Position numbers and translations under genes: made by a program
Source of the DNA: Siphonodentalium dalli
Lineage: Eukaryota; Mollusca; Scaphopoda; Gadilida; Siphonodentaliidae
DNA length: 64,000 nucleotides
NCBI GenBank assembly: GCA_032622095.1
Contig: CP136061.1
Location: 97,151,345 to 97,215,344, forward strand
Direction of reading: 5' to 3'
Shown here: positions 1 through 64,000 of the stretch, piece after piece
How positions within the stretch are numbered: the stretch's first letter is position 1
Layout of the letters: every line of letters begins with the position of its first letter
The notes under the pieces: generated by a model
Databases searched by the model: none
What the model was told of the DNA's origin: nothing
The model's input: only the letters and a program-made list of their open reading frames with translations

Positions 1-1231
1 CTACATGTATCTTGTTAGCAGCCTACATGTATCTTGTTAGCAGCCTACATGTATCTTGTTAGCAGCCTGAGAACACCACATGTATCTTGTTAGCAGCCTG
101 AGAACACCACATGTATCTTGTTAGCAGCCTACATGTGTCTTGTTAGCAGCCTACATGTATCTTGTTAGCAGCCTACATGTATCTTGTTAGCAGCCTGAGA
201 ACACCACATGTATCTTGTTAGCAGCTTGAGAACACTACATGTATCTTGTTAGCAGCCTACATGTATCTTGTTAGCAGCCTGAGAACACCACATGTATCTT
301 GTTAGCAGCCTACATGTGTCTTGTTAGCAGCCTACATGTATCTTGTTAGCAGCCTGAGAACACCACATGTATCTTGTTAGCAGCCTACATGTGTCTTGTT
401 AGCAGCCTACATGTATCTTGTTAGCAGCCTACATGTATCTTGTTAGCAGCCTGAGAACACCACATGTATCTTGTTAGCAGCTTGAGAACACTACATGTAT
501 CTTGTTAGCAGCCTACATGTATCTTGTTAGCAGCCTGAGAACACCACATGTATCTTGTTAGCAGCTTGAGAACACCACATGTATCTTGTTAGCAGCCTAC
601 ATGTATCTTGTTAGCAGCCTACATGTATCTTGTTAGCAGCCTATATGTATCTTGTTAGCAGCCTACATGTGTCTTGTTAGCAGCCTGAGAACACCACATG
701 TATCTTGTTAGCAGCTTGAGAACACCACATGTATCTTGTTAGCAGCCTACATGTATCTTGTTAGCAGCCTACATGTATCTTGTTAGCAGCCTGAGAACAC
801 CACATGTATCTTGTTAGCAGCTTGAGAACACCACATGTATCTTGTTAGCAGCCTACATGTGTCTTGTTAGCAGCCTACATGTATCTTGTTAGCAGCCTAC
901 ATGTATCTTGTTAGCAGCCTACATGTATCTTGTTAGCAGCCTGAGAACACCACATGTATCTTGTTAGCAGCTTGAGAACACCACATGTATCTTGTTAGCA
1001 GCCTACATGTATCTTGTTAGCAGCCTACATGTATCTTGTTAGCAGCCTGAGAACACCACATGTATCTTGTTAGCAGCTTGAGAACACCACATGTATCTTG
1101 TTAGCAGCCTACATGTGTCTTGTTAGCAGCCTACATGTATCTTGTTAGCAGCCTACATGTATCTTGTTAGCAGCCTACATGTATCTTGTTAGCAGCCTAC
1201 ATGTATCTTGTTAGCAGCCTACATGTATCTT
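1..1231 (+). repeat. Mixed 22/31-mer segment with TGTGTC variants and a 256-bp duplication
   Basis: Ordinary 22-mers alternate with 31-mers, most of them with CACCACATG after the nine-base insert. Many 31-mers start with T instead of C (TTGAGAACAC). Some 22-mers read TGTGTC in place of TGTATC. The order of monomers around the TGTGTC site near 135 is repeated near 391, and the TTGAGAACACTAC 31-mer at 226 recurs at 482. Both give a 256-bp spacing (six 22-mers plus four 31-mers). No gene is present. Confidence 0.93.
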
Positions 1232-2500
1232 GTTAGCAGCCTACATGTATATTGTTAGCACACTACATGTATCTTGTTAGCAGCCTGAGAACACCACATG
1301 TATCTTGTTAGCAGCCTACATGTATCTTGTTAGCAGCCTACATGTATCTTGTTAGCAGCCTACATGTATATTGTTAGCACACTACATGTATCTTGTTAGC
1401 AGCCTGAGAACACCACATGTATCTTGTTAGCAGCCTACATGTATCTTGTTAGCAGCCTACATGTATCTTGTTAGCAGCCTACATGTATATTGTTAGCACA
1501 CTACATGTATCTTGTTAGCAGCCTGAGAACACCACATGTATCTTGTTAGCAGCCTACATGTATCTTGTTAGCAGCCTACATGTATCTTGTTAGCAGCCTA
1601 CATGTATCTTGTTAGCAGCCTACATGTATCTTGTTAGCAGCCTACATGTATCTTGTTAGCAGCCTACATGTATATTGTTAGCACACTACATGTATCTTGT
1701 TAGCAGCCTGAGAACACCACATGTATCTTGTTAGCAGCCTACATGTATCTTGTTAGCAGCCTACATGTATCTTGTTAGCAGCCTACATGTATCTTGTTAG
1801 CAGCCTACATGTATCTTGTTAGCAGCCTACATGTATCTTGTTAGCAGCCTACATGTATATTGTTAGCAGCCTACATGTATCTTGTTAGCAGCCTACATGT
1901 ATCTTGTTAGCACCCTACATGTATATTGTTAGCACACTACATGTATCTTGTTAGCAGCCTGAGAACACTACATGTATCTTGTTAGCAGCCTACATGTATC
2001 TTGTTAGCAGCCTACATGTATCTTGTTAGCAGCCTACATGTATATTGTTAGCACACTACATGTATCTTGTTAGCAGCCTGAGAACACCACATGTATCTTG
2101 TTAGCAGCCTACATGTATCTTGTTAGCAGCCTACATGTATCTTGTTAGCAGCCTACATGTATCTTGTTAGCAGCCTACATGTATCTTGTTAGCAGCCTAC
2201 ATGTATCTTGTTAGCAGCCTACATGTATCTTGTTAGCAGCCTACATGTATATTGTTAGCACACTACATGTATCTTGTTAGCAGCCTGAGAACACCACATG
2301 TATCTTGTTAGCAGCCTACATGTATCTTGTTAGCAGCCTACATGTATCTTGTTAGCAGCCTACATGTATCTTGTTAGCAGCCTACATGTATATTGTTAGC
2401 ACACTACATGTATCTTGTTAGCAGCCTGAGAACACCACATGTATCTTGTTAGCAGCCTACGTGTATCTTGTTAGCACACTACATGTATCTTGTTAGCAGC
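1232..2500 (+). repeat. 119-bp higher-order repeats with GCACAC junction variant
   Basis: The marker is a 22-mer reading TATATTG and usually ending GCACA instead of GCAGC. It recurs with its TATATTG change at about 1251, 1370, 1489, 1674, 1859, 1925, 2044, 2251 and 2392. The spacings are 119, 119, 185, 185, 66, 119, 207 and 141 bp. The base unit of 119 bp is four 22-mers plus one 31-mer, and the larger spacings add 1, 3 or 4 further 22-mers. The marker near 1859 lacks the GCACA ending. The marker monomer is usually followed by one plain 22-mer and then a CTGAGAACAC 31-mer. Confidence 0.92.
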
Positions 2501-3580
2501 CTGAGAACACCACATGTATCTTGTTAGCAGCCTACATGTGTCTTGTTAGCAGCCTACATGTATCTTGTTAGCAGCCTACATGTATCTTGTTAGCAGCCTA
2601 CATGTATATTGTTAGCACACTACATGTATCTTGTTAGCAGCTTGAGAACACCACATGTATCTTGTTAGCAGCCTACATGTATCTTGTTAGCAGCCTACAT
2701 GTATCTTGTTAGCAGCCTACATGTATCTTGTTAGCAGCCTACATGTGTCTTGTTAGCAGCCTACATGTATCTTGTTAGCAGCCTACATGTATCTTGTTAG
2801 CAGCCTACATGTATATTGTTAGCACACTACATGTATCTTGTTAGCAGCTTGAGAACACCACATGTATCTTGTTAGCAGCCTACATGTATCTTGTTAGCAG
2901 CCTACATGTATCTTGTTAGCAGCCTACATGTATCTTGTTAGCAGCCTGAGAACACTACATGTATCTTGTTAGCAGCTTGAGAACACCACATGTATCTTGT
3001 TAGCAGCCTACATGTATCTTGTTAGCAGCCTACATGTATCTTGTTAGCAGCCTACATGTATCTTGTTAGCACACTACATGTATCTTGTTAGCAGCTTGAG
3101 AACACCACATGTATCTTGTTAGCAGCCTACATGTATCTTGTTAGCAGCCTACATGTATCTTGTTAGCAGCCTACATGTATCTTGTTAGCACACTACATGT
3201 ATCTTGTTAGCAGCCTGGGAACACCACATGTATCTTGTTAGCAGCCTACATGTATCTTGTTAGCAGCCTACATGTATCTTGTTAGCAGCCTACATGTATC
3301 TTGTTAGCAGCCTACATGTATCTTGTTAGCAGCCTACATGTATCTTGTTAGCAGCCTACATGTATATTGTTAGCACACTACATGTATCTTGTTAGCAGCC
3401 TACATGTATCTTGTTAGCAGCCTACATGTATATTGTTAGCACACTACATGTATCTTGTTAGCAGCTTGAGAACACCACATGTATCTTGTTAGCAGCTTAA
3501 GAACACCACATGTATCTTGTTAGCAGCCTACATGTGTCTTGTTAGCAGCCTGAGAACACTACATGTATCTTGTTAGCAGC
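2501..3580 (+). repeat. 1,080-bp higher-order repeat, copy 1
   Basis: This unit starts at a CTGAGAACACCAC 31-mer at 2501 whose counterpart is at 3581. It contains TATATTG/GCACAC markers, TGTGTC monomers and TTGAGAACAC 31-mers in the same order as the next unit. Private differences include CTGGGAACACC near 3215 and TTAAGAACACC near 3507. The length equals thirty-five 22-mers plus ten 31-mers. It has one 22-mer more than copy 2, located before the TGTGTC monomer near 2746. Confidence 0.92.
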
Positions 3581-12620: not shown

Positions 12621-15600
12621 CTACATGTATCTTGTTAGCAGCCTACATGTATCTTGTTAGCAGCCTACATGTATCTTGTTAGCAGCCTACATGTATCTTG
12701 TTAGCAGCCTGCATGTATCTTGTTAGCAGCCTACATGTATCTTGTTAGCAGCCTGCATGTATCTTGTTAGCAGCCTACATGTATCTTGTTAGCAGCCTAC
12801 ATGTATCTTGTTAGCAGCCTGCATGTATCTTGTTAGCAGCCTACATGTATCTTGTTAGCGGCCTACATGTATCTTGTTAGCAGCCTACATGTATCTTGTT
12901 AGCAGCCTACATGTATCTTGTTAGCAGCTTGAGAACACTACATGTATCTTGTTAGCAGCCTACATGTATCTTGTTAGCAGCCTACATGTATCTTGTTAGC
13001 AGCCTACATGTATCTTGTTAGCAGCCTACATGTATCTTGTTAGCAGCCTACATGTATCTTGTTAGCAGCCTACATGTATCTTGTTAGCAGCCTACATGTA
13101 TCTTGTTAGCAGCCTACATGTATCTTGTTAGCAGCCTACATGTATCTTGTTAGCAGCCTACATGTATCTTGTTAGCAGCCTACATGTATCTTGTTAGCAG
13201 CCTACATGTATCTTGTTAGCAGCCTACATGTATCTTGTTAGCAGCCTACATGTATCTTGTTAGCAGCCTGCATGTATCTTGTTAGCAGCCTACATGTATC
13301 TTGTTAGCAGCCTACATGTATCTTGTTAGCAGCCTACATGTATCTTGTTAGCAGCCTACATGTATCTTGTTAGCAGCCTACATGTATCTTGTTAGCAGCC
13401 TGCATGTATCTTGTTAGCAGCCTACATGTATCTTGTTAGCAGCCTGCATGTATCTTGTTAGCAGCCTACATGTATCTTGTTAGCAGCCTGCATGTATCTT
13501 GTTAGCAGCCTACATGTATCGTGTTAGCAGCCTACATGTATCTTATTAGCAGCCTACATATATCTTGTTAGCAGCCTACATGTATCTTGTTAGCAGCCTA
13601 CATGTATCTTGTTAGCAGCCTACATGTATCTTGTTAGCAGCCTACATGTATCTTGTTAGCAGCCTACATGTATCTTGTTAGCAGCCTACATGTATCTTGT
13701 TAGCAGCCTACATGTATCTTGTTAGCAGCCTACATGTATCTTGTTAGCAGCCTACATGTATCTTGTTAGCAGCCTACATGTATCTTGTTAGCAGCCTACA
13801 TGTATCTTGTTAGCAGCCTACATGTATCTTGTTAGCAGCCTACATGTATCTTGTTAGCAGCCTACATGTATCTTGTTAGCAGCCTACATGTATCTTGTTA
13901 GCAGCCTGCATGTATCTTGTTAGCAGCCTACATGTATCTTGTTAGCAGCCTACATGTATCTTGTTAGCAGCCTACATGTATCTTGTTAGCAGCCTACATG
14001 TATCTTGTTAGCAGCCTACATGTATCTTGTTAGCAGCCTGCATGTATCTTGTTAGCAGCCTACATGTATCTTGTTAGCAGCCTGCATGTATCTTGTTAGC
14101 AGCCTACATGTATCTTGTTAGCAGCCTGCATGTATCTTGTTAGCAGCCTGCATGTATCTTGTTAGCAGCCTGCATGTATCTTGTTAGCAGCCTACATGTA
14201 TCTTGTTAGCAGCTTGAGAACACTACTTGTATCTTGTTAGCAGCCTACATGTATCTTGTTAGCAGCCTACATGTATCTTGTTAGCAGCCTACATGTATCT
14301 TGTTAGCAGCTTGAGAACACTACATGTATCTTGTTAGCAGCCTACATGTATCTTGTTAGCAGCCTACATGTATCTTGTTAGCAGCCTACATGTATCTTGT
14401 TAGCAGCTTGAGAACACCACATGTATCTTGTTAGCAGCCTACATGTATCTTGTTAGCAGCCTGCATGTATCTTGTTAGCAGCCTACATGTATCTTGTTAG
14501 CAGCCTACATGTATCTTGTTAGCAGCCTGCATGTATCTTGTTAGCAGCCTACATGTATCTTGTTAGCAGCCTACATGTATCTTGTTAGCAGCTTGAGAAC
14601 ACTACATGTATCTTGTTAGCAGCCTACATGTATCTTGTTAGCAGCCTACATGTATCTTGTTAGCAGCCTACATGTATCTTGTTAGCAGCTTGAGAACACT
14701 ACATGTATCTTGTTAGCAGCCTGCATGTATCTTGTTAGCAGCCTACATGTATCTTGTTAGCAGCCTGAGAACACTACATGTATCTTGTTAGCAGCCTGGG
14801 AACACTACATGTATCTTGTTAGCAGCTTGAGAACACTGCATGTATCTTGTTAGCAGCCTGGGAACACTACATGTATCTTGTTAGCAGCCTGAGAACACTA
14901 CATGTATCTTGTTAGCAGCATACATGTATCTTGTTAGCAGCTTGAGAACACTACATGTATCTTGTTAGCAGCCTACATGTATCTTGTTAGCAGCTTGAGA
15001 ACACTACATGTATCTTGTTAGCAGCCTACATGTATCTTGTTAGCAGCCTACATGTATCTTGTTAGCAGCCTACATGTATCTTGTTAGCAGCTTGAGAACA
15101 CTACATGTATCTTGTTAGCAGCTTGAGAACACTACATGTATCTTGTTAGCAGCCTACATGTATCTTGATAGCAGCCTACATGTATCTTGTTAGCAGCCTA
15201 CATGTATCTTGTTAGCAGCTTGAGAACACTACATGTATCTTGTTAGCAGCTTGAGAACACTACATGTATCGTGTTAGCAGCCTACATGTATCTTGTTAGC
15301 AGCTTGAGAACACTACATGTATCTTGTTAGCAGCCTACATGTATCTTGTTAGCAGCTTGAGAACACTACATGTATCTTGTTAGCAGCCTACATGTATCTT
15401 GTTAGCAGCCTACATGTATCTTGTTAGCAGCCTACATGTATCTTGTTAGCAGCCTACATGTATCTTGTTAGCAGCCTACATGTATCTTGTTAGCAGCCTA
15501 CATGTATCTTGTTAGCAGCCTACATGTATCTTGTTAGCAGCCTACATGTATCTTGTTAGCAGCCTGAGAACATTACAAGTATCTTGTTAGCAGCCTACAT

Positions 15601-18600
15601 GTATCTTGTTAGCAGCCTGAGAACACTACATGTATCTTGTTAGCAGCCTACATGTATCTTGTTAGCAGCTTGAGAACACTACATGTATCTTGTTAGCAGC
15701 CTACATGTATCTTGTTAGCAGCCTACATGTATCTTGTTAGCAGCCTACATGTATCTTGTTAGCAGCTTGAGAACACTACATGTATCTTGTTAGCAGCTTG
15801 AGAACACTACATGTATCTTGTTAGCAGCCTACATGTATCTTGTTAGCAGCTTGAGAACACTACATGTATCTTGTTAGCAGCCTACATGTATCTTGTTAGC
15901 AGCCTACATGTATCTTGTTAGCAGCCTGCATGTATCTTGTTAGCAGCCTACATGTATCTTGTTAGCAGCCTACATGTATCTTGTTAGCAGCTTGAGAACA
16001 CTACATGTATCTTGTTAGCAGCCTACATGTATCTTGTTAGCAGCCTACATGTATCTTGTTAGCAGCCTACATGTATCTTGTTAGCAGCCTACATGTATCT
16101 TGTTAGCAGCCTACATGTATCTTGTTAGCAGCCTGAGAACACTACATGTATCTTGTTAGCAGCCTACATGTATCTTGTTAGCAGCTTGAGAACACTACAT
16201 GTATCTTGTTAGCAGCCTACATGTATCTTGTTAGCAGCCTACATGTATCTTGTTAGCAGCCTACATGTATCTTGTTAGCAGCCTACATGTATCTTGTTAG
16301 CAGCCTACATGTATCTTGTTAGCAGCCTACATGTATCTTGTTAGCAGCTTGAGAACACTACATGTTTCTTGTTAGCAGCCTACATGTATCTTGTTAGCAG
16401 CCTACATGTATCTTGTTAGCAGCCTACATGTATCTTGTTAGCAGCTTGAGAACACTACATGTATCTTGTTAGCAGCCTGCATGTATCTTGTTAGCAGCCT
16501 ACATGTATCTTGTTAGCAGCCTGAGAACACTACATGTATCTTGTTAGCAGCCTGGGAATACTACATGTATCTTGTTAGCAGCCTGAGAACACTACATGTA
16601 TCTTGTTAGCAGCCTGAGAACACTACATGTATCTTGTTAGCAGCCTGGGAACACTACATGTATCTTGTTAGCAGCCTGAGAACACTACATGTATCTTGTT
16701 AGCAGCCTGCATGTATCTTGTTAGCAGCCTACATGTATCTTGTTAGCAGCCTGAGAACACTACATGTATCTTGTTAGCAGCCTGGGAACACTACATGTAT
16801 CTTGTTAGCAGCCTGAGAACACTACATGTATCTTGTTAGCAGCCTGAGAACACTACATGTATCTTGTTAGCAGCCTGGGAACACTACATGTATCTTGTTA
16901 GCAGCCTGAGAACTCTACATGTATCTTGTTAGCAGCCTGTATGTATCTTGTTAGCAGCCTACATGTATCTTGTTAGCAGCCTGAGAACACTACATGTATC
17001 TTGTTAGCAGCCTGGGAACACTACATGTATCTTGTTAGCAGCCTGAGAACACTACATGTATCTTGTTAGCAGCCTGAGAACACTACATGTATCTTGTTAG
17101 CAGCCTGAGAACACTACATGTATCTTGTTAGCAGCCTACATGTATCTTGTTAGCAGCCTGAGAACACTACATGTATCTTGTTAGCAGCCTGAGAACACTA
17201 CATGTATCTTGTTAGCAGCCTGAGAACACTACATGTATCTTGTTAGCAGCCTACATGTATCTTGTTAGCAGCCTACATGTATCTTGTTAGCAGCCTACAT
17301 GTATCTTGTTAGCAGCCTACATGTATCTTGTTAGCAGCCTACATGTATCTTGTTAGCAGCCTACATGTATCTTGTTAGCAGCTTGAGAACACTACATGTA
17401 TCTTGTTAGCAGCCTACATGTATCTTGTTAGCAGCCTACATGTATCTTGTTAGCAGCCTACATGTATCTTGTTAGCAGCCTACATGTATCTTGTTAGCAG
17501 CTTGAGAACACCACATGTATCTTGTTAGCAGCCTACATGTATCTTGTTAGCAGCCTGCATGTATCTTGTTAGCAGCCTACATGTATCTTGTTAGCAGCTT
17601 GAGAACACTACATGTATCTTGTTAGCAGCCTACATGTATCTTGTTAGCAGCTTGAGAACACTACATGTATCTTGTTAGCAGCCTGCATGTATCTTGTTAG
17701 CAGCCTACATGTATCTTGTTAGCAGCCTGCATGTATCTTGTTAGCAGCCTACATGTATCTTGTTAGCAGCTTGAGAACACTACATGTATCTTGTTAGCAG
17801 CCTGAGAACACTACATGTATCTTGTTAGCAGCCTACATGTATCTTGTTAGCAGCTTGAGAACACTACATGTATCTTGTTAGCAGCCTGAGAACACTACAT
17901 GTATCTTGTTAGCAGCCTGAGAACACTACATGTATCTTGTTAGCAGCCTACATGTATCTTGTTAGCAGCCTGCATGTTTCTTGTTAGCAGCCTGAGAACA
18001 CCACATGTATCTTGTTAGCAGCCTACATGTATCTTGTTAGCAGCTTGAGAACACTACATGTATCTTGTTAGCAGCCTACATGTATCTTGTTAGCAGCTTG
18101 AGAACACTACATGTATCTTGTTAGCAGCCTACATGTATCTTGTTAGCAGCCTACATGTATCTTGTTAGCAGCCTACATGTATCTTGTTAGCAGCTTGAGA
18201 ACACTACATGTATCTTGTTAGCAGCTTGAGAACACTACATGTATCTTGTTAGCAGCCTACATGTATCTTGTTAGCAGCTTGAGAACACTACATGTATCTT
18301 GTTAGCAGCCTACATGTATCTTGTTAGCAGCCTACATGTATCTTGTTAGCAGCCTGCATGTATCTTGTTAGCAGCCTACATGTATCTTGTTAGCAGCCTA
18401 CATGTATCTTGTTAGCAGCTTGAGAACACTACATGTATCTTGTTAGCAGCCTACATGTATCTTGTTAGCAGCCTACATGTATCTTGTTAGCAGCCTACAT
18501 GTATCTTGTTAGCAGCCTACATGTATCTTGTTAGCAGCCTACATGTATCTTGTTAGCAGCCTGAGAACACTACATGTATCTTGTTAGCAGCCTACATGTA

Positions 18601-18644: not shown

Positions 18645-21600
18645 CTACATGTATCTTGTTAGCAGCCTACATGTATCTTGTTAGCAGCCTACATGTATCT
18701 TGTTAGCAGCCTACATGTATCTTGTTAGCAGCCTGCATGTATCTTGTTAGCAGCCTACATGTATCTTGTTAGCAGCCTGCATGTATCTTGTTAGCAGCCT
18801 ACATGTATCTTGTTAGCAGCCTACATGTATCTTGTTAGCAGCCTGCATGTATCTTGTTAGCAGCCTACATGTATCTTGTTAGCGGCCTACATGTATCTTG
18901 TTAGCAGCCTACATGTATCTTGTTAGCAGCCTACATGTATCTTGTTAGCAGCCTACATGTATCTTGTTAGCAGCCTACATGTATCTTGTTAGCAGCCTAC
19001 ATGTATCTTGTTAGCAGCCTACATGTATCTTGTTAGCAGCCTACATGTATCTTGTTAGCAGCCTACATGTATCTTGTTAGCAGCCTACATGTATCTTGTT
19101 AGCAGCCTACATGTATCTTGTTAGCAGCCTACATGTATCTTGTTAGCAGCCTACATGTATCTTGTTAGCAGCCTACATGTATCTTGTTAGCAGCCTACAT
19201 GTATCTTGTTAGCAGCCTACATGTATCTTGTTAGCAGCCTGCATGTATCTTGTTAGCAGCCTACATGTATCTTGTTAGCAGCCTACATGTATCTTGTTAG
19301 CAGCCTACATGTATCTTGTTAGCAGCCTACATGTATCTTGTTAGCAGCCTACATGTATCTTGTTAGCAGCCTGCATGTATCTTGTTAGCAGCCTACATGT
19401 ATCTTGTTAGCAGCCTGCATGTATCTTGTTAGCAGCCTACATGTATCTTGTTAGCAGCCTGCATGTATCTTGTTAGCAGCCTGCATGTATCTTGTTAGCA
19501 GCCTGCATGTATCTTGTTAGCAGCCTACATGTATCTTGTTAGCAGCTTGAGAACACTACTTGTATCTTGTTAGCAGCCTACATGTATCTTGTTAGCAGCC
19601 TACATGTATCTTGTTAGCAGCCTACATGTATCTTGTTAGCAGCTTGAGAACACTACATGTATCTTGTTAGCAGCCTACATGTATCTTGTTAGCAGCCTAC
19701 ATGTATCTTGTTAGCAGCCTACATGTATCTTGTTAGCAGCTTGAGAACACCACATGTATCTTGTTAGCAGCCTACATGTATCTTGTTAGCAGCCTGCATG
19801 TATCTTGTTAGCAGCCTACATGTATCTTGTTAGCAGCCTACATGTATCTTGTTAGCAGCCTGCATGTATCTTGTTAGCAGCCTACATGTATCTTGTTAGC
19901 AGCCTACATGTATCTTGTTAGCAGCTTGAGAACACTACATGTATCTTGTTAGCAGCCTACATGTATCTTGTTAGCAGCCTACATGTATCTTGTTAGCAGC
20001 CTACATGTATCTTGTTAGCAGCTTGAGAACACTACATGTATCTTGTTAGCAGCCTGCATGTATCTTGTTAGCAGCCTACATGTATCTTGTTAGCAGCCTG
20101 AGAACACTACATGTATCTTGTTAGCAGCCTGGGAACACTACATGTATCTTGTTAGCAGCTTGAGAACACTGCATGTATCTTGTTAGCAGCCTGGGAACAC
20201 TACATGTATCTTGTTAGCAGCCTGAGAACACTACATGTATCTTGTTAGCAGCATACATGTATCTTGTTAGCAGCTTGAGAACACTACATGTATCTTGTTA
20301 GCAGCCTACATGTATCTTGTTAGCAGCTTGAGAACACTACATGTATCTTGTTAGCAGCCTACATGTATCTTGTTAGCAGCCTACATGTATCTTGTTAGCA
20401 GCCTACATGTATCTTGTTAGCAGCTTGAGAACACTACATGTATCTTGTTAGCAGCTTGAGAACACTACATGTATCTTGTTAGCAGCCTACATGTATCTTG
20501 ATAGCAGCCTACATGTATCTTGTTAGCAGCCTACATGTATCTTGTTAGCAGCTTGAGAACACTACATGTATCTTGTTAGCAGCTTGAGAACACTACATGT
20601 ATCGTGTTAGCAGCCTACATGTATCTTGTTAGCAGCTTGAGAACACTACATGTATCTTGTTAGCAGCCTACATGTATCTTGTTAGCAGCTTGAGAACACT
20701 ACATGTATCTTGTTAGCAGCCTACATGTATCTTGTTAGCAGCCTACATGTATCTTGTTAGCAGCCTACATGTATCTTGTTAGCAGCCTACATGTATCTTG
20801 TTAGCAGCCTACATGTATCTTGTTAGCAGCCTACATGTATCTTGTTAGCAGCCTACATGTATCTTGTTAGCAGCCTACATGTATCTTGTTAGCAGCCTGA
20901 GAACATTACAAGTATCTTGTTAGCAGCCTACATGTATCTTGTTAGCAGCCTGAGAACACTACATGTATCTTGTTAGCAGCCTACATGTATCTTGTTAGCA
21001 GCTTGAGAACACTACATGTATCTTGTTAGCAGCCTACATGTATCTTGTTAGCAGCCTACATGTATCTTGTTAGCAGCCTACATGTATCTTGTTAGCAGCT
21101 TGAGAACACTACATGTATCTTGTTAGCAGCTTGAGAACACTACATGTATCTTGTTAGCAGCCTACATGTATCTTGTTAGCAGCTTGAGAACACTACATGT
21201 ATCTTGTTAGCAGCCTACATGTATCTTGTTAGCAGCCTACATGTATCTTGTTAGCAGCCTGCATGTATCTTGTTAGCAGCCTACATGTATCTTGTTAGCA
21301 GCCTACATGTATCTTGTTAGCAGCTTGAGAACACTACATGTATCTTGTTAGCAGCCTACATGTATCTTGTTAGCAGCCTACATGTATCTTGTTAGCAGCC
21401 TACATGTATCTTGTTAGCAGCCTACATGTATCTTGTTAGCAGCCTACATGTATCTTGTTAGCAGCCTGAGAACACTACATGTATCTTGTTAGCAGCCTAC
21501 ATGTATCTTGTTAGCAGCTTGAGAACACTACATGTATCTTGTTAGCAGCCTACATGTATCTTGTTAGCAGCCTACATGTATCTTGTTAGCAGCCTACATG

Positions 21601-23977
21601 TATCTTGTTAGCAGCCTACATGTATCTTGTTAGCAGCCTACATGTATCTTGTTAGCAGCCTACATGTATCTTGTTAGCAGCTTGAGAACACTACATGTTT
21701 CTTGTTAGCAGCCTACATGTATCTTGTTAGCAGCCTACATGTATCTTGTTAGCAGCCTACATGTATCTTGTTAGCAGCTTGAGAACACTACATGTATCTT
21801 GTTAGCAGCCTGCATGTATCTTGTTAGCAGCCTACATGTATCTTGTTAGCAGCCTGAGAACACTACATGTATCTTGTTAGCAGCCTGGGAACACTACATG
21901 TATCTTGTTAGCAGCCTGAGAACACTACATGTATCTTGTTAGCAGCCTGAGAACACTACATGTATCTTGTTAGCAGCCTGGGAACACTACATGTATCTTG
22001 TTAGCAGCCTGAGAACACTACATGTATCTTGTTAGCAGCCTGCATGTATCTTGTTAGCAGCCTACATGTATCTTGTTAGCAGCCTGAGAACACTACATGT
22101 ATCTTGTTAGCAGCCTGGGAACACTACATGTATCTTGTTAGCAGCCTGAGAACACTACATGTATCTTGTTAGCAGCCTGAGAACACTACATGTATCTTGT
22201 TAGCAGCCTGGGAACACTACATGTATCTTGTTAGCAGCCTGAGAACTCTACATGTATCTTGTTAGCAGCCTGTATGTATCTTGTTAGCAGCCTACATGTA
22301 TCTTGTTAGCAGCCTGAGAACACTACATGTATCTTGTTAGCAGCCTGGGAACACTACATGTATCTTGTTAGCAGCCTGAGAACACTACATGTATCTTGTT
22401 AGCAGCCTGAGAACACTACATGTATCTTGTTAGCAGCCTGAGAACACTACATGTATCTTGTTAGCAGCCTACATGTATCTTGTTAGCAGCCTGAGAACAC
22501 TACATGTATCTTGTTAGCAGCCTGAGAACACTACATGTATCTTGTTAGCAGCCTGAGAACACTACATGTATCTTGTTAGCAGCCTACATGTATCTTGTTA
22601 GCAGCCTACATGTATCTTGTTAGCAGCCTACATGTATCTTGTTAGCAGCCTACATGTATCTTGTTAGCAGCCTACATGTATCTTGTTAGCAGCCTACATG
22701 TATCTTGTTAGCAGCTTGAGAACACTACATGTATCTTGTTAGCAGCCTACATGTATCTTGTTAGCAGCCTACATGTATCTTGTTAGCAGCCTACATGTAT
22801 CTTGTTAGCAGCCTACATGTATCTTGTTAGCAGCTTGAGAACACCACATGTATCTTGTTAGCAGCCTACATGTATCTTGTTAGCAGCCTGCATGTATCTT
22901 GTTAGCAGCCTACATGTATCTTGTTAGCAGCTTGAGAACACTACATGTATCTTGTTAGCAGCCTACATGTATCTTGTTAGCAGCTTGAGAACACTACATG
23001 TATCTTGTTAGCAGCCTGCATGTATCTTGTTAGCAGCCTACATGTATCTTGTTAGCAGCCTGCATGTATCTTGTTAGCAGCCTACATGTATCTTGTTAGC
23101 AGCTTGAGAACACTACATGTATCTTGTTAGCAGCCTGAGAACACTACATGTATCTTGTTAGCAGCCTACATGTATCTTGTTAGCAGCTTGAGAACACTAC
23201 ATGTATCTTGTTAGCAGCCTGAGAACACTACATGTATCTTGTTAGCAGCCTGAGAACACTACATGTATCTTGTTAGCAGCCTACATGTATCTTGTTAGCA
23301 GCCTGCATGTTTCTTGTTAGCAGCCTGAGAACACCACATGTATCTTGTTAGCAGCCTACATGTATCTTGTTAGCAGCTTGAGAACACTACATGTATCTTG
23401 TTAGCAGCCTACATGTATCTTGTTAGCAGCTTGAGAACACTACATGTATCTTGTTAGCAGCCTACATGTATCTTGTTAGCAGCCTACATGTATCTTGTTA
23501 GCAGCCTACATGTATCTTGTTAGCAGCTTGAGAACACTACATGTATCTTGTTAGCAGCTTGAGAACACTACATGTATCTTGTTAGCAGCCTACATGTATC
23601 TTGTTAGCAGCTTGAGAACACTACATGTATCTTGTTAGCAGCCTACATGTATCTTGTTAGCAGCCTACATGTATCTTGTTAGCAGCCTGCATGTATCTTG
23701 TTAGCAGCCTACATGTATCTTGTTAGCAGCCTACATGTATCTTGTTAGCAGCTTGAGAACACTACATGTATCTTGTTAGCAGCCTACATGTATCTTGTTA
23801 GCAGCCTACATGTATCTTGTTAGCAGCCTACATGTATCTTGTTAGCAGCCTACATGTATCTTGTTAGCAGCCTACATGTATCTTGTTAGCAGCCTGAGAA
23901 CACTACATGTATCTTGTTAGCAGCCTACATGTATCTTGTTAGCAGCTTGAGAACACTACATGTATCTTGTTAGCAGC
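18645..23977 (+). repeat. 6-kb higher-order repeat, copy 2 (5,333 bp, 691-bp deletion)
   Basis: The AGCGGCC marker at 18881 is 6,024 bp from its copy 1 partner, but all markers from CTACTTG (19557) onward are 5,333 bp from theirs. Copy 2 is therefore 691 bp shorter (thirty 22-mers plus one 31-mer) between these two markers. The missing part contains the TTGAGAACAC 31-mer found at 12930 in copy 1 and the TATCGTG/TTATTAG/ACATATA trio. All later markers are present in order, including TTGATAG, ACATTACAAG (20904 region), CATGTTTC (21694), AACTCTAC (22244) and CTGCATGTTTC (23303). Confidence 0.95.
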
Positions 23978-26900
23978 CTACATGTATCTTGTTAGCAGCC
24001 TACATGTATCTTGTTAGCAGCCTACATGTATCTTGTTAGCAGCCTACATGTATCTTGTTAGCAGCCTGCATGTATCTTGTTAGCAGCCTACATGTATCTT
24101 GTTAGCAGCCTGCATGTATCTTGTTAGCAGCCTACATGTATCTTGTTAGCAGCCTACATGTATCTTGTTAGCAGCCTGCATGTATCTTGTTAGCAGCCTA
24201 CATGTATCTTGTTAGCGGCCTACATGTATCTTGTTAGCAGCCTACATGTATCTTGTTAGCAGCCTACATGTATCTTGTTAGCAGCTTGAGAACACTACAT
24301 GTATCTTGTTAGCAGCCTACATGTATCTTGTTAGCAGCCTACATGTATCTTGTTAGCAGCCTACATGTATCTTGTTAGCAGCCTACATGTATCTTGTTAG
24401 CAGCCTACATGTATCTTGTTAGCAGCCTACATGTATCTTGTTAGCAGCCTACATGTATCTTGTTAGCAGCCTACATGTATCTTGTTAGCAGCCTACATGT
24501 ATCTTGTTAGCAGCCTACATGTATCTTGTTAGCAGCCTACATGTATCTTGTTAGCAGCCTACATGTATCTTGTTAGCAGCCTACATGTATCTTGTTAGCA
24601 GCCTACATGTATCTTGTTAGCAGCCTGCATGTATCTTGTTAGCAGCCTACATGTATCTTGTTAGCAGCCTACATGTATCTTGTTAGCAGCCTACATGTAT
24701 CTTGTTAGCAGCCTACATGTATCTTGTTAGCAGCCTACATGTATCTTGTTAGCAGCCTGCATGTATCTTGTTAGCAGCCTACATGTATCTTGTTAGCAGC
24801 CTGCATGTATCTTGTTAGCAGCCTACATGTATCTTGTTAGCAGCCTGCATGTATTTTGTTAGCAGCCTACATGTATCGTGTTAGCAGCCTACATGTATCT
24901 TATTAGCAGCCTACATATATCTTGTTAGCAGCCTACATGTATCTTGTTAGCAGCCTACATGTATCTTGTTAGCAGCCTACATGTATCTTGTTAGCAGCCT
25001 ACATGTATCTTGTTAGCAGCCTACATGTATCTTGTTAGCAGCCTACATGTATCTTGTTAGCAGCCTACATGTATCTTGTTAGCAGCCTACATGTATCTTG
25101 TTAGCAGCCTACATGTATCTTGTTAGCAGCCTACATGTATCTTGTTAGCAGCCTACATGTATCTTGTTAGCAGCCTACATGTATCTTGTTAGCAGCCTAC
25201 ATGTATCTTGTTAGCAGCCTACATGTATCTTGTTAGCAGCCTACATGTATCTTGTTAGCAGCCTGCATGTATCTTGTTAGCAGCCTACATGTATCTTGTT
25301 AGCAGCCTACATGTATCTTGTTAGCAGCCTACATGTATCTTGTTAGCAGCCTACATGTATCTTGTTAGCAGCCTACATGTATCTTGTTAGCAGCCTGCAT
25401 GTATCTTGTTAGCAGCCTACATGTATCTTGTTAGCAGCCTGCATGTATCTTGTTAGCAGCCTACATGTATCTTGTTAGCAGCCTGCATGTATCTTGTTAG
25501 CAGCCTGCATGTATCTTGTTAGCAGCCTGCATGTATCTTGTTAGCAGCCTACATGTATCTTGTTAGCAGCTTGAGAACACTACTTGTATCTTGTTAGCAG
25601 CCTACATGTATCTTGTTAGCAGCCTACATGTATCTTGTTAGCAGCCTACATGTATCTTGTTAGCAGCTTGAGAACACTACATGTATCTTGTTAGCAGCCT
25701 ACATGTATCTTGTTAGCAGCCTACATGTATCTTGTTAGCAGCCTACATGTATCTTGTTAGCAGCTTGAGAACACCACATGTATCTTGTTAGCAGCCTACA
25801 TGTATCTTGTTAGCAGCCTGCATGTATCTTGTTAGCAGCCTACATGTATCTTGTTAGCAGCCTAAATGTATCTTGTTAGCAGCCTGCATGTATCTTGTTA
25901 GCAGCCTACATGTATCTTGTTAGCAGCCTACATGTATCTTGTTAGCAGCTTGAGAACACTACATGTATCTTGTTAGCAGCCTACATGTATCTTGTTAGCA
26001 GCCTACATGTATCTTGTTAGCAGCCTACATGTATCTTGTTAGCAGCTTGAGAACACTACATGTATCTTGTTAGCAGCCTGCATGTATCTTGTTAGCAGCC
26101 TACATGTATCTTGTTAGCAGCCTGAGAACACTACATGTATCTTGTTAGCAGCCTGGGAACACTACATGTATCTTGTTAGCAGCTTGAGAACACTGCATGT
26201 ATCTTGTTAGCAGCCTGGGAACACTACATGTATCTTGTTAGCAGCCTGAGAACACTACATGTATCTTGTTAGCAGCATACATGTATCTTGTTAGCAGCTT
26301 GAGAACACTACATGTATCTTGTTAGCAGCCTACATGTATCTTGTTAGCAGCTTGAGAACACTACATGTATCTTGTTAGCAGCCTACATGTATCTTGTTAG
26401 CAGCCTACATGTATCTTGTTAGCAGCCTACATGTATCTTGTTAGCAGCTTGAGAACACTACATGTATCTTGTTAGCAGCTTGAGAACACTACATGTATCT
26501 TGTTAGCAGCCTACATGTATCTTGATAGCAGCCTACATGTATCTTGTTAGCAGCCTACATGTATCTTGTTAGCAGCTTGAGAACACTACATGTATCTTGT
26601 TAGCAGCTTGAGAACACTACATGTATCGTGTTAGCAGCCTACATGTATCTTGTTAGCAGCTTGAGAACACTACATGTATCTTGTTAGCAGCCTACATGTA
26701 TCTTGTTAGCAGCTTGAGAACACTACATGTATCTTGTTAGCAGCCTACATGTATCTTGTTAGCAGCCTACATGTATCTTGTTAGCAGCCTACATGTATCT
26801 TGTTAGCAGCCTACATGTATCTTGTTAGCAGCCTACATGTATCTTGTTAGCAGCCTACATGTATCTTGTTAGCAGCCTACATGTATCTTGTTAGCAGCCT

Positions 26901-29900: not shown

Positions 29901-30001
29901 TGTATCTTGTTAGCAGCCTGAGAACACTACATGTATCTTGTTAGCAGCCTACATGTATCTTGTTAGCAGCTTGAGAACACTACATGTATCTTGTTAGCAG
30001 C
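23978..30001 (+). repeat. 6-kb higher-order repeat, copy 3 (6,024 bp)
   Basis: Markers recur 11,357 bp from copy 1 and, after the deletion point, 6,024 bp from copy 2: AGCGGCC at 24214, TATCGTG at 24875, CTACTTG near 25581, TTGATAG near 26521, ACATTACAAG near 26927, CATGTTTC at 27718, AACTCTAC at 28268 and CTGCATGTTTC at 29327. It retains the 691-bp segment absent from copy 2. I saw only a few private changes, such as TATTTTG near 24853 and CTAAATG near 25863, so the copies are nearly identical and the duplications recent. Confidence 0.95.
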
Positions 30002-31882
30002 CTACATGTATCTTGTTAGCAGCCTACATGTATCTTGTTAGCAGCCTACATGTATCTTGTTAGCAGCCTACATGTATCTTGTTAGCAGCCTACATGTATC
30101 TTGTTAGCAGCCTACATGTATCTTGTTAGCAGCTTGAGAACACTACATGTTTCTTGTTAGCAGCCTACATGTATCTTGTTAGCAGCCTACATGTATCTTG
30201 TTAGCAGCCTACATGTATCTTGTTAGCAGCTTGAGAACACTACATGTATCTTGTTAGCAGCCTGCATGTATCTTGTTAGCAGCCTACATGTATCTTGTTA
30301 GCAGCCTGAGAACACTACATGTATCTTGTTAGCAGCCTGGGAACACTACATGTATCTTGTTAGCAGCCTGAGAACACTACATGTATCTTGTTAGCAGCCT
30401 GAGAACACTACATGTATCTTGTTAGCAGCCTGGGAACACTACATGTATCTTGTTAGCAGCCTGTGAACACTACATGTATCTTGTTAGCAGCCTGCATGTA
30501 TCTTGTTAGCAGCCTACATGTATCTTGTTAGCAGCCTGAGAACACTACATGTATCTTGTTAGCAGCCTGGGAACACTACATGTATCTTGTTAGCAGCCTG
30601 AGAACACTACATGTATCTTGTTAGCAGCCTGAGAACACTACATGTATCTTGTTAGCAGCCTGGGAACACTACATGTATCTTGTTAGCAGCCTGAGAACAC
30701 TACATGTATCTTGTTAGCAGCCTGCATGTATCTTGTTAGCAGCCTACATGTATCTTGTTAGCAGCCTGAGAACACTACATGTATCTTGTTAGCAGCCTGG
30801 GAACACTACATGTATCTTGTTAGCAGCCTGAGAACACTACATGTATCTTGTTAGCAGCCTGAGAACACTACATGTATCTTGTTAGCAGCCTGAGAACACT
30901 ACATGTATCTTGTTAGCAGCCTACATGTATCTTGTTAGCAGCCTGAGAACACTACATGTATCTTGTTAGCAGCCTGAGAACACTACATGTATCTTGTTAG
31001 CAGCCTGAGAACACTACATGTATCTTGTTAGCAGCCTACATGTATCTTGTTAGCAGCCTACATGTATCTTGTTAGCAGCCTACATGTATCTTGTTAGCAG
31101 CCTACATGTATCTTGTTAGCAGCCTACATGTATCTTGTTAGCAGCCTACATGTATCTTGTTAGCAGCTTGAGAACACTACATGTATCTTGTTAGCAGCCT
31201 ACATGTATCTTGTTAGCAGCCTACATGTATCTTGTTAGCAGCCTACATGTATCTTGTTAGCAGCCTACATGTATCTTGTTAGCAGCTTGAGAACACCACA
31301 TGTATCTTGTTAGCAGCCTACATGTATCTTGTTAGCAGCCTGCATGTATCTTGTTAGCAGCCTACATGTATCTTGTTAGCAGCTTGAGAACATTACATGT
31401 ATCTTGTTAGCAGCCTACATGTATCTTGTTAGCAGCTTGAGAACACTACATGTATCTTGTTAGCAGCCTGCATGTATCTTGTTAGCAGCCTACATGTATC
31501 TTGTTAGCAGCCTGCATGTATCTTGTTAGCAGCCTACATGTATCTTGTTAGCAGCTTGAGAACACTACATGTATCTTGTTAGCAGCCTGAGAACACTACA
31601 TGTATCTTGTTAGCAGCCTACATGTATCTTGTTAGCAGCTTGAGAACACTACATGTATCTTGTTAGCAGCCTGAGAACACTACATGTATCTTGTTAGCAG
31701 CCTGAGAACACTACATGTATCTTGTTAGCAGCCTACATGTATCTTGTTAGCAGCCTGCATGTTTCTTGTTAGCAGCCTGAGAACACCACATGTATCTTGT
31801 TAGCAGCCTACATGTATCTTGTTAGCAGCTTGAGAACACTACATGTATCTTGTTAGCAGCCTACATGTATCTTGTTAGCAGC
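30002..31882 (+). repeat. 6-kb higher-order repeat, partial copy 4 (1,881 bp)
   Basis: This segment repeats 27574-29454 of copy 3 at an offset of 2,428 bp: CATGTTTC at 27718 and 30146, the G monomer at 27834 and 30262, and CTGCATGTTTC at 29327 and 31755. The AACTCTAC and CTGTATG changes are absent at the expected places (about 30696 and 30722). Private changes are CTGTGAACAC near 30461 and ACATTACATG near 31391. Homology stops after the 22-mer at 31861, where copy 3 has a 31-mer and this segment has a G monomer. Confidence 0.92.
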
Positions 31883-49520: not shown

Positions 49521-50314
49521 GCAGCCTGAGAACACTACATGTTTCTTATTAGCAGCCTACATGTCTCTTATTAGCAGCCTGAGAACACTACATGTTTCTT
49601 ATTAGCAGCCTACATGTCTCTTATTAGCAGCCTACATGTATCTTATTAGCAGCCTACATGTCTCTTATTAGCAGCCTACATGTCTCTTATTAGCAGCCTA
49701 CATGTCTCTTATTAGCAGCCTACATGTTTCTTATTAGCAGCCTACATGTCTCTTATTAGCAGCCTGAGAACACTACATGTATCTTATTAGCAGCCTACAT
49801 GTCTCTTATTAGCAGCCTGAGAACACTACATGTTTCTTATTAGCAGCCTACATGTTTCTTATTAGCAGCCTACATGTCTCTTATTAGCAGCCTACATGTA
49901 TCTTATTAGCAGCCTACATGTCTCTTATTAGCAGCCTGAGAACACTACATGTTTCTTATTAGCAGCCTACATGTTTCTTATTAGCAGCCTACATGTCTCT
50001 TATTAGCAGCCTACATGTATCTTATTAGCAGCCTACATGTTTCTTATTAGCAGCCTGAGAACACTACATGTTTCTTATTAGCAGCCTATATGTCTCTTAT
50101 TAGCAGCCTGAGAACACTACATGTTTCTTATTAGCAGCCTACATGTCTCTTATTAGCAGCATACATGTCTCTTATTAGCAGCCTACATGTTTCTTATTAG
50201 CAGCCTACATGTCTCTTATTAGCAGCCTACATGTCTCTTATTAGCAGCCTACATGTCTCTTATTAGCAGCCTACATGTCTCTTATTAGCAGCCTACATGT
50301 CTCTTATTAGCAGC
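49521..50314 (+). repeat. First TTTCTTATTAG segment, left member of a 550-bp duplication
   Basis: TTTC replaces TCTC first in 31-mers (from about 49541) and then in 22-mers. A CTATATGTCTC monomer at 50086 recurs at 50636, 550 bp away. The monomers before both sites have the same order, so the stretch was duplicated. An AGCATACATG junction is near 50159. Confidence 0.88.
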
Positions 50315-50330
50315 CTGAGAACACTGCAGC
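50315..50330 (+). repeat. Truncated 16-bp monomer
   Basis: The monomer reads CTGAGAACACTGCAGC. It keeps the first eleven bases of a 31-mer and then its last five, so fifteen bases (ACATGT through TTA) are missing. It is the only monomer I found that is neither 22 nor 31 bp. The 550-bp spacing of the flanking CTATATG markers fits exactly: thirteen 22-mers, eight 31-mers and these 16 bases. Confidence 0.93.
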
Positions 50331-53131
50331 CTACATGTCTCTTATTAGCAGCCTGAGAACACTACATGTCTCTTATTAGCAGCCTGAGAACACTACATGT
50401 CTCTTATTAGCAGCCTGAGAACACTACATGTCTCTTATTAGCAGCCTGAGAACACTACATGTCTCTTATTAGCAGCCTGAGAACACTACATGTCTCTTAT
50501 TAGCAGCCTGAGAACACTACATGTTTCTTATTAGCAGCCTACATGTCTCTTATTAGCAGCCTACATGTATCTTATTAGCAGCCTACATGTTTCTTATTAG
50601 CAGCCTGAGAACACTACATGTTTCTTATTAGCAGCCTATATGTCTCTTATTAGCAGCCTGAGAACACTACATGTTTCTTATTAGCAGCCTACATGTCTCT
50701 TATTAGCAGCCTACATGTCTCTTATTAGCAGCCTACATGTTTCTTATTAGCAGCCTACATGTTTCTTATTAGCAGCCTACATGTCTCTTATTAGCAGCCT
50801 ACATGTCTCTTATTAGCAGCCTACATGTTTCTTATTAGCAGCCTACATGTCTCTTATTAGCAGCCTACATGTCTCTTATTAGCAGCCTACATGTTTCTTA
50901 TTAGCAGCCTATATGTCTCTTATTAACAGCCTGAGAACACTACATGTCTCTTATTAGCAGCCTACATGTCTCTTATTAGCAGCCTACATGTCTCTTATTA
51001 GCAGCCTACATGTCTCTTATTAGCAGCCTACATGTCTCTTATTAGCAGCCTGAGAACACTACATGTTTCTTATTAGCAGCCTACATGTCTCTTATTAGCA
51101 GCCTGAGAACACTACATGTTTCTTATTAGCAGCCTGAGAACACTACATGTTTCTTATTAGCAGCCTGAGAACACTACATGTCTCTTATTAGCAGCCTACA
51201 TGTCTCTTATTAGCAGCCTACATGTCTCTTATTAGCAGCCTACATGTCTCTTATTAGCAGCCTACATGTCTCTTATTAGCAGCCTGAGAACACTACATGT
51301 TTCTTATTAGCAGCCTACATGTCTCTTATTAGCAGCCTGAGAACACTACATGTTTCTTATTAGCAGCCTGAGAACACTACATGTTTCTTATTAGCAGCCT
51401 ACATGTTTCTTATTAGCAGCCTGAGAACACTACATGTCTCTTATTAGCAGCCTACATGTCTCTTATTAGCAGCCTACATGTCTCTTATTAGCAGCCTACA
51501 TGTCTCTTATTAGCAGCCTACATGTCTCTTATTAGCAGCCTACATGTCTCTTATTAGCAGCCTGAGAACACTACATGTCTCTTATTAGCAGCCTGAGAAC
51601 ACTACATGTCTCTTATTAGCAGCCTGAGAACACTACATGTTTCTTATTAGCAGCCTGAGAACACTACATGTTTCTTATTAGCAGCCTACATGTCTCTTAT
51701 TAGCAGCCTGAGAACACTACATGTCTCTTATTAGCAGCCTACATGTCTCTTATTAGCAGCCTACATGTATCTTATTAGCAGCCTACATGTCTCTTATTAG
51801 CAGCCTACATGTCTCTTATTAGCAGCCTACATGTCTCTTATTAGCAGCCTACATGTATCTTATTAGCAGCCTGAGAACACTACATGTTTCTTATTAGCAG
51901 CCTACATGTCTCTTATTAGCAGCCTGAGAACACTACATGTCTCTTATTAGCAGCCTGAGAACACTACATGTCTCTTATTAGCAGCCTGAGAACACTACAT
52001 GTCTCTTATTAGCAGCCTACATGTCTCTTATTAGCAGCCTACATGTTTCTTATTAGCAGCCTGAGAACACTACATGTTTCTTATTAGCAGCCTACATGTC
52101 TCTTATTAGCAGCCTACATGTCTCTTATTAGCAGCCTACATGTCTCTTATTAGCAGCCTACATGTCTCTTATTAGCAGCCTACATGTCTCTTATTAGCAG
52201 CCTACATGTCTCTTATTAGCAGCCTGAGAACACTACATGTTTCTTATTAGCAGCCTACATGTCTCTTATTAGCAGCCTACATGTCTCTTATTAGCAGCCT
52301 ACATGTCTCTTATTTGCAGCCTACATGTCTCTTATTAGCAGCCTACATGTCTCTTATTAGCAGCCTGAGAACACTACATGTTTCTTATTAGCAGCCTACA
52401 TGTCTCTTATTAGCAGCCTACATGTCTCTTATTAGCAGCCTACATGTCTCTTATTAGCAGCCTACATGTCTCTTATTAGCAGCCTACATGTCTCTTATTA
52501 GCAGCCTACATGTCTCTTATTAGCAGCCTACATGTCTCTTATTAGCAGCCTACATGTCTCTTATTAGCAGCCTGAGAACACTACATGTTTCTTATTAGCA
52601 GCCTACATGTCTCTTATTAGCAGCCTACATGTCTCTTATTAGCAGCCTACATGTCTCTTATTAGCAGCCTACATGTCTCTTATTAGCAGCCTACATGTCT
52701 CTTATTAGCAGCCTACATGTCTCTTATTAGCAGCCTACATGTCTCTTATTAGCAGCCTACATGTCTCTTATTAGCAGCCTGAGAACACTACATGTTTCTT
52801 ATTAGCAGCCTGAGAACACTACATGTTTCTTATTAGCAGCCTGAGAACACTACATGTTTCTTATTAGCAGCCTGAGAACACTACATGTTTCTTGTTAGCA
52901 GCCTACATGTCTCTTATTAGCAGCCTACATGTCTCTTATTAGCAGCCTGAGAACACTACATGTTTCTTATTAGCAGCCTACATGTCTCTTATTAGCAGCC
53001 TACATGTCTCTTATTAGCAGCCTACATGTCTCTTATTAGCAGCCTACATGTCTCTTATTAGCAGCCTACATGTCTCTTATTAGCAGCCTACATGTCTCTT
53101 ATTAGCAGCCTACATGTCTCTTATTAGCAGC
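50331..53131 (+). repeat. TCTC/TTTC mixed segment with short 31-mer runs
   Basis: Six consecutive 31-mers at 50353-50538 follow the truncated monomer. The rest mixes TCTCTTA 22-mers with 31-mers that are mostly TTTCTTA. A CTATATG monomer with TTAACAGC near 50910 joins two variants seen separately elsewhere. TTTGCAGC near 52314 removes the usual TAG. Recurrent blocks of one TTTC 31-mer followed by five to nine TCTC 22-mers lie at about 52071-52790. Confidence 0.88.
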
Positions 53132-62703: not shown

Positions 62704-62972
62704 CTAGATGTCTCTTATTAACAGCCTGAGAACACTACATGTCTCTTATTAGCAGCCTAGATGTCTCTTTTTAACAGCCTGAGAACACTACATGTTTCTT
62801 ATTAGCAGCCTACATGTCTCTTATTAACAGCCTGAGAACACTACATGTATCTTATTAGCAGCCTACATGTTTCTTATTAGCAGCCTACATGTTTCTTATT
62901 AGCAGCCTACATGTCTCTTATTAGCAGCCTACATGTCTCTTATTAGCAGCCTACATGTCTCTTATTAGCAGC
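62704..62972 (+). repeat. 670-bp duplication, copy 2 (269 bp)
   Basis: This repeats 62034-62302: CTAGATG 22-mers, TTAACAGC junctions, a TTTC 31-mer at 62779 and a TATC 31-mer at 62832. A private TCTCTTTTTAAC occurs near 62765. Homology ends at 62973, where a CTGATAACAC 31-mer stands in place of a 22-mer. Confidence 0.9.
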
Positions 62973-64000
62973 CTGATAACACTACATGTATCTTATTAGC
63001 AGCCTACATGTTTCTTATTAGCAGCCTACATGTTTCTTATTAGCAGCCTACATGTCTCTTATTAACAGCCTACATGTTTCTTATTAGCAGCCTACATGTC
63101 TCTTATTAGCAGCCTACATGTCTCTTATTAACAGCCTGAGAACACTACATGTCTCTTATTAGCAGCCTACATGTCTCTTATTAGCAGCCTACATGTCTCT
63201 TATTAACAGCCTGAGAACACTACATGTTTCTTATTAGCAGCCTACATGTTTCTTATTAGCAGCCTACATGTCTCTTATTAGCAGCCTACATGTCTCTTAT
63301 TAACAGCCTGAGAACACTACATGTATCTTATTAGCAGCCTACATGTTTCTTATTAGCAGCCTACATGTTTCTTATTAGCAGCCTACATGTCTCTTATTAG
63401 CAGCCTACATGTCTCTTATTAGCAGCCTGAGAACACTACATGTTTCTTATTAGCAGCCTACATGTCTCTTATTAGCAGCCTACATGTCTCTTATTAGCAG
63501 CCTACATGTCTCTTATTAGCAGCCTACATGTTTCTTATTAGCAGCCTACATGTCTCTTATTAGCAGCCTACATGTCTCTTATTAGCAGCCTACATGTTTC
63601 TTATTAGCAGCCTACATGTCTCTTATTAGCAGCCTACATGTCTCTTATTAGCAGCCTACATGTTTCTTATTAGCAGCCTACATGTCTCTTATTAGCAGCC
63701 TACATGTCTCTTATTAGCAGCCTACATGTCTCTTATTAGCAGCCTACATGTTTCTTATTAGCAGCCTACATGTCTCTTATTAGCAGCCTACATGTCTCTT
63801 ATTAGCAGCATACATGTCTCTTATTAGCAGCATACATGTCTCTTATTAGCAGCCTACATGTCTCTTATTAGCAGCCTACATGTCTCTTATTAGCAGCCTA
63901 CATGTCTCTTATTAGCAGCCTACATGTCTCTTATTAGCAGCCTACATGTTTCTTATTAGCAGCCTACATGTCTCTTATTAGCAGCCTACATGTCTCTTAT
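62973..64000 (+). repeat. Right end of window: TCTC/TTTC 22-mers
   Basis: A CTGATAACAC 31-mer at 62973 is followed by TTTC and TCTC 22-mers, with TTAACAGC endings until about 63305. After the 31-mer near 63428 only 22-mers occur: groups of two to five TCTC monomers separated by one TTTC monomer. Two junctions near 63810 and 63832 read GCATACATG. The array continues past the window edge. Confidence 0.92.

Follow-up and report, generated by a model that had tools for sequence, protein, structure and literature searches.

A single-locus tandem array of about 230 kb with interleaved 22-bp and 31-bp monomers in the scaphopod Siphonodentalium dalli

The human minisatellite MSY1, which has been mapped by MVR-PCR, is built from a 25-bp unit whose variants occur in blocks, and many autosomal minisatellite loci carry interspersed variants, the structure being explained by changes in block length and in repeat type, according to the extracted text of PMC2599865. 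In the mouse minor satellite, one family comprises several monomer lengths (a 120-mer, a 112-mer and a 112-64 dimer), as given in the extracts of PMC10880262. Alpha-satellite arrays with layered expansions possess a homogeneous younger part adjoined by older divergent repeats, and unequal exchange, gene conversion or break-induced replication are the mechanisms proposed for the layering in the parts of PMC11034957 drawn upon here.

The array described here, from the genome of the scaphopod mollusc Siphonodentalium dalli, is closest in kind to the variant-repeat minisatellite represented by MSY1, followed by the mouse minor satellite and by layered alpha-satellite growth. It is a long head-to-tail array (about 230 kb) of a short non-coding unit, as in minisatellites and satellites, and its unit variants are interspersed at one locus, as in MVR-type loci. 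The short unit, the variant units and the single locus are shared with MSY1; in contrast, the variants of MSY1 are base substitutions, other unit lengths never having been observed in the extracted account, whereas the present array is far longer and has a 9-bp length difference as its main variant (PMC2599865). With the mouse minor satellite it shares the occurrence of several monomer lengths in one family. However, the mouse lengths split into distinct clades and array types and are centromeric, whereas here the lengths are interleaved, the cores are shared, and the array sits at a single locus (extracts of PMC10880262). Like the layered alpha-satellite arrays it has a homogeneous part and a more divergent one, but neither a centromere role nor one fixed higher-order repeat is in evidence, only one locus is involved and the layering is clear on one arm only (extracts of PMC11034957).

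The window, by which is meant the whole stretch of 64,000 bases analysed at the outset, corresponds to positions 97,151,345-97,215,344 of contig C1 in a genome of 2.23 Gb in nine contigs. Sampling and edge reads place the whole array at about 97,126,115-97,355,910 on C1, i.e. approximately 230 kb. The initial annotation, made from the window, had described two monomer lengths kept over 64 kb, which stands for the window and falls short as an extent, the array being about 3.6 times as long. The array sequence analysed amounts to 145.8 of 229.8 kb, counting in both the window and a foreign stretch of about 2.2 kb that lies inside the array near 97,139,100-97,141,400; the window itself carries no foreign insert, its largest monomer step being 38 bp. 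Both ends of the array border on other sequence, and the analysed array is unidirectional except for a short inverted run near 97,272,905. The features of the window are as follows.

1-64,000, plus strand: part of the head-to-tail array of 22-bp and 31-bp monomers (whole array about G000:C1:97,126,115-97,355,910)
1-22, plus strand: example of the 22-bp monomer, CTACATGTATCTTGTTAGCAGC (from the sequence)
68-76, plus strand: first nine-base cassette, TGAGAACAC, which yields a 31-mer (string match)
13,561-16,558, plus strand: block of 2,998 bp with an exact copy at 18,894-21,891 (exact-repeat comparison)
18,894-21,891, plus strand: exact second copy of 13,561-16,558 (exact-repeat comparison)
19,842-24,067, plus strand: 4,226-bp block, repeated identically at 25,866-30,091 (exact-repeat comparison)
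25,866-30,091, plus strand: exact second copy of 19,842-24,067 (exact-repeat comparison)
32,001-64,000, plus strand: core position 12 often A, not G (38-99% of monomers per 4-kb bin)
50,295-50,332, plus strand: 38-bp monomer, the sole odd length in the window (monomer segmentation)

A best-match core scan of the window identified 2,634 core anchors and hence 2,633 consecutive steps, of which 1,963 measure 22 bp, 669 measure 31 bp and a single one 38 bp, with no other spacing. Tandem Repeats Finder (TRF) reported periods of 22 and 31 plus multiples. Both analyses had been proposed in the initial annotation as checks on its description of two length classes lying side by side, and both agree with it, the two lengths being sharp and a broad spread of lengths being absent in the window. 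The nine-base cassette that it had named as the difference between the classes was also confirmed: the 31-mer differs from the 22-mer by the insertion of TGAGAACAC ahead of the final T, i.e. ahead of the next TACATG. The exact cassette occurs 620 times in the window, once in the 38-mer and otherwise in 31-mers, of which 619 out of 669 carry it and the remaining 50 a variant of it. The core itself had been put at 21 bp; it is indeed shared, but its size was underestimated, the whole 22-mer being common to both lengths.

Across the analysed array, 5,565 steps were scored (3,339 of 22 bp, 2,212 of 31 bp, 12 of 32 bp and one each of 38 and 20 bp), leaving out one 22-mer at the array border and the odd entries of 29, 53 and 29 bp, which are inverted copies to the right of the array. 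These monomers include 100 distinct 22-mers and 197 distinct 31-mers. In the 32-mer, which amounts to a one-base insertion, the junction CTATAATG replaces CTACATG, and the same changed junction is found in all 12 copies, which lie at 97,303,979-97,350,692, over 47 kb, on five slightly different cores, so that a further length variant can be seen directly to have spread within part of the array. The description by two lengths holds for the analysed array, with the 32-mer as one minor third length.

The 31-mer junction was found on the array's strand at 3,686 places genome-wide with at most 2 mismatches and at 3,859 with at most 3, compared with 3,612 and 3,776, respectively, predicted for the array alone by interpolation from the analysed sequence; for the 22-mer junction, the corresponding values are 4,785 genome-wide and 4,767 estimated, likewise by interpolation, so that for both junctions counts and estimates agree within about 2%. 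On the opposite strand, the 31-mer junction occurs at three places, all in or beside the array, and the 22-mer junction at eight places genome-wide, for which the count alone is given. Practically all close genomic copies sit at one locus, the interpolated estimates leaving room for some dozens elsewhere. A centromeric satellite would be expected on all or most chromosomes, a pattern not seen here, the close copies being practically confined to the C1 locus. Chromosome-specific centromere arrays exist, however, and confinement to a single locus is compatible with a centromere here. A coding role is rejected, the window containing no open reading frame of at least 60 amino acids, and an exact 20-mer has no match in the viral contigs.

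The order of 22-mers and 31-mers is inherited with copied blocks. The longest repeated 22/31 order in the window extends over 252 monomers, against 26-34 in 20 shuffles, and the two block pairs listed above are joined by a third exact copy, of 2,175 bp. Exact copied blocks of at least 200, 500 and 1,000 bp account for 69%, 42% and 29% of the window bases, respectively. The copies lie at offsets of 11,357, 6,024, 5,333 and 2,428 bp with no single dominant period. A 31-mer follows a 31-mer with a probability of 0.31 and a 22-mer with 0.24, without fixed alternation.

The array is thus best explained, as to its make-up, by ordinary large-block copying and not by a function needing both lengths. 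We consider it to be, with good probability, a non-coding giant minisatellite of satellite size at a single locus, polymorphic in its monomer for an old nine-base insertion/deletion and shaped by block copying. The copying may have proceeded via unequal sister-chromatid exchange or break-induced replication. One copying step would move dozens to hundreds of monomers, so that neither length would quickly be lost and both could persist without selection for two, and exchange breakpoints within the shared core would bring old cassettes to lie beside new core variants.

The core variants allow this reading to be examined in the relation between core and cassette. Core position 12 is A in 0-1% of monomers per 4-kb bin before 32,001, as against the high values that follow in the window. 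Over 36 bins of the analysed array, the frequency of A12 in 22-mers tracks that in 31-mers (r = 0.97), as do those of C7 (0.95), G3 (0.94), T7 (0.75) and G1 (0.74), whereas three of the eight variants followed do not track across the length classes (G18 0.25, A9 0.19, G7 0.09). Among the 24 core haplotypes with at least 10 copies, 18 occur in both classes, the rarer class being represented by one copy in 4 of the 18. Variants directly beside the cassette are nevertheless nearly restricted to one class: T21 lies on 31-mers in 208 of 209 cases and A19 in 244 of 245, and GCGAC cores are absent from 22-mers against 53.6 expected within bins. Frequent loss of the cassette, whatever the background, would be expected to make 22-mers with T21 or GCGAC common. 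In contrast, A21 is found in 77 22-mers and 55 31-mers, which implies repeated loss or mutation, or exchange reaching close to the cassette.

Linkage to the cassette falls with distance only modestly, which, like the three variants that do not track, tells against the reading. G3 is indifferent to its own cassette, 19 bp away (134 observed, 137.5 expected), and avoids the preceding one, 2 bp away (24 observed, 136.6 expected). The median |Q| is 0.75 at 0-4 bp, 0.69 at 5-9 bp, and 0.47 at both 10-14 and 15-21 bp; the Spearman correlation of linkage with distance, for 20 alleles that are non-independent, is -0.46 on the downstream side (p = 0.04) and -0.31 on the upstream side (p = 0.18). Strong linkage is nevertheless seen for certain distant alleles (A2 0.89 at 20 bp, C10 0.94 at 12 bp), as would also be expected from block copying alone. 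The cassette has the appearance of a single old insertion/deletion polymorphism whose linkage is strong to adjacent bases and on average weaker, though not absent, to distant ones, and the pattern as a whole fits one or few old events combined with block copying and some exchange within the core.

The most notable feature of the array is its length cline. The share of 31-mers ranges from 0.08 to 0.91 per bin over 37 bins, and on the right arm it rises smoothly over about 120 kb, from 0.15 near 97.227 Mb to 0.91 near 97.349 Mb. With a starting point after the window that was chosen post hoc, once the data had been seen, the Spearman correlations along the right arm are 0.985 for the 31-mer share and 0.867 for core diversity, both rising (16 bins, end bin excluded), or 0.951 and 0.889, respectively, with the end bin, in which the share drops to 0.64 (17 bins); from other starts the correlation for the share is 0.89 (97.184 Mb) or 0.72-0.74 (97.150 Mb). 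Against distance from the nearer edge (37 bins), the correlations are -0.37 for the share (p = 0.03) and -0.49 for diversity (p = 0.002), while the left part, which starts with shares of 0.53 and 0.64 and then falls to 0.08, has no significant cline in 31-mer share (-0.34, p = 0.15, 20 bins) and pairwise diversity is only weakly related to the share (0.40, p = 0.03, 29 bins), all these p-values being too small because bins that share copied blocks are non-independent. Diversity is lowest (pi 0.012) in a zone whose 31-mer share, 0.34, is not the lowest.

It is conceivable, though rather doubtful, that the right-arm cline constitutes a directional record, in which long/short heteroduplexes would lose the nine-base loop more often than gain it in each round of growth, making the cline a readable clock of length-biased conversion. 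As regards polarity, the 31-mer may be the older form, as the diversity of the right arm, the distribution of GCGAC and the fact that a 9-bp loss requires no external source of sequence would suggest. The GCGAC 31-mers lie mainly on the 31-rich right arm, with some (8 of 230) at the left edge. The 22-mer may then have arisen by loss of 9 bp between the short direct repeats CT...CT, and the 31-rich, more varied right arm may be the older layer, both steps being proposed with less confidence than the block copying. Against the 31-mer as the older form, 22-mers make up 10 of the 11 final steps at the right end, and both lengths are already intermixed in two small inverted runs beyond the array.

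Selection on both lengths, such as might be exerted by a DNA-binding protein requiring cores on one face of the helix or at two spacings, appears improbable. The initial annotation had suggested that a binding face could keep its helical phase across both monomers; near neighbours are indeed roughly in phase, but the array as a whole is not. At 10.5 bp per turn, a 22-mer shifts the phase by +34 degrees and a 31-mer by -17 degrees, and the mean resultant over 5, 10 and 20 monomers is 0.81, 0.45 and 0.27, compared with 0.40, 0.28 and 0.20 for random phase. Thus, coherence over about five monomers speaks for such a protein and the near-random phase by 20 monomers against it. The corresponding values are 0.87, 0.65 and 0.34 at 10.6 bp per turn and 0.16, 0.13 and 0.08 at 10.0, coherence at 10.0-10.4 being lower than at 10.5. 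By arithmetic, zero drift at 10.5 requires about two thirds of 31-mers, whereas the window has 25%. The earlier proposal that the pair is maintained by constraint also finds no support in the wide swings of the 31-mer share, in the absence of fixed alternation or in an order inherited through block copies.

Other evidence in favour of selection comes from the scarcity of further length changes, only three types of other indel (20, 32 and 38 bp) being present in the analysed array against 79 distinct position-allele substitutions. This shortage has P = 0.011 at an assumed neutral ratio of 1:8 and 0.045 at 1:10 but is not significant at 1:15 (P = 0.23), and the monomer has no long homopolymer prone to slip; the shortage becomes suggestive only under a neutral ratio of about 1:10 or one richer in indels, itself an assumed figure. 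The core also contains the palindrome TACATGTA, likewise in favour of such selection. A unit driven by hairpins was considered separately and rejected: in single-strand DNA folding of window positions 1-93, the plus strand folds no better than shuffles (z -0.27, 71 of 200 folding as well) and the minus strand weakly better (z -1.66, 12 of 200).

An origin of the array as the expanded tandem portion of a transposable element is very improbable. Satellite-like repeats are carried by Helentrons of the Pacific oyster, as described in the extracts of PMC7492417, and just to the right of the array lie two 161-bp pieces, each of which consists of a non-repeat leader followed by inverted monomers spaced 22, 22 and 31. 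However, the 33-bp leader pattern occurs only twice genome-wide at up to 3 mismatches, both times beside the array, so that a transposon-borne repeat with a dispersed common flank is not what is found. The junction counts, moreover, leave few or no close copies elsewhere; diverged copies, for which 40 of 388 candidates were scored, may exist. Least probable of all is that the long exact copies arose through misassembly and that the true length and order of the array differ. Exact repeats of 1-4 kb are where assemblers fail, but the monomer lengths, the cassette and the class-linked variants are independent of the long copies, and other sequence borders the array at either end.

The family had not been recognised in the initial annotation, and six monomer strings match no paper text, in a search that strings in figures, in supplements or broken by spaces would escape. 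The literature searched holds analogues only and no satellite with 22-bp and 31-bp monomers. As far as these searches go, the array is undescribed, and its kind, the large variant-repeat minisatellite or satellite, is already known. Viewed simply as sequence, it is a further repeat from a single genome. Its significance lies in being a clean natural case of the survival and the movement of a length polymorphism within a tandem array, in which numerous substitutions and a one-base insertion can be tracked in parallel with the nine-base cassette. Nothing in the array requires a function needing both lengths, and the coexistence of two monomer lengths over 230 kb would seem possible without one.

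The GC skew, calculated per 2 kb, lies between -0.03 and -0.11 over the first half of the window and is mostly -0.17 to -0.31 in positions 32001-64000. Such a shift would be expected from a G-to-A change at base 12 of the core, the 22-bp unit common to both monomer lengths, together with replacement of the A at base 7 by C or T. A short run of inverted monomers was observed elsewhere in the array, from about C1:97,272,905 onward (offset 3905 of the stretch L054).

The array is broken by about 2.2 kb of foreign sequence at about C1:97,139,111-97,141,386, bounded by core matches at offsets 1110 and 3385 of the stretch L046. A 1,241-bp piece of this foreign sequence returned 811 candidates genome-wide at first look, with identities of 97-100% in the 40 that were scored; some of these scored matches, located on contigs C3, C4, C5 and C6, are arranged head to tail with a spacing of 3,955-3,961 bp.

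The features flanking the array in the S. dalli genome are as follows.

C1:97,120,801-97,122,654 (L025:1-1854), left flank: open frame containing a TIR domain as well as leucine-rich repeats, clipped where the stretch L025 begins
C1:97,355,909-97,356,069 (L064), past the right end of the array: first 161-bp piece
C1:97,357,792-97,357,952 (L064), past the right end of the array: second 161-bp piece

The open frame, which lies to the left of the array at a distance of about 3.5 kb, is probably of the Toll-like receptor type. The two 161-bp pieces are 1.9 kb apart and share 99% identity, each consisting of a leader and a few inverted monomers in which both lengths are represented; they may be remnants either of the seed or of a rearrangement at the edge.
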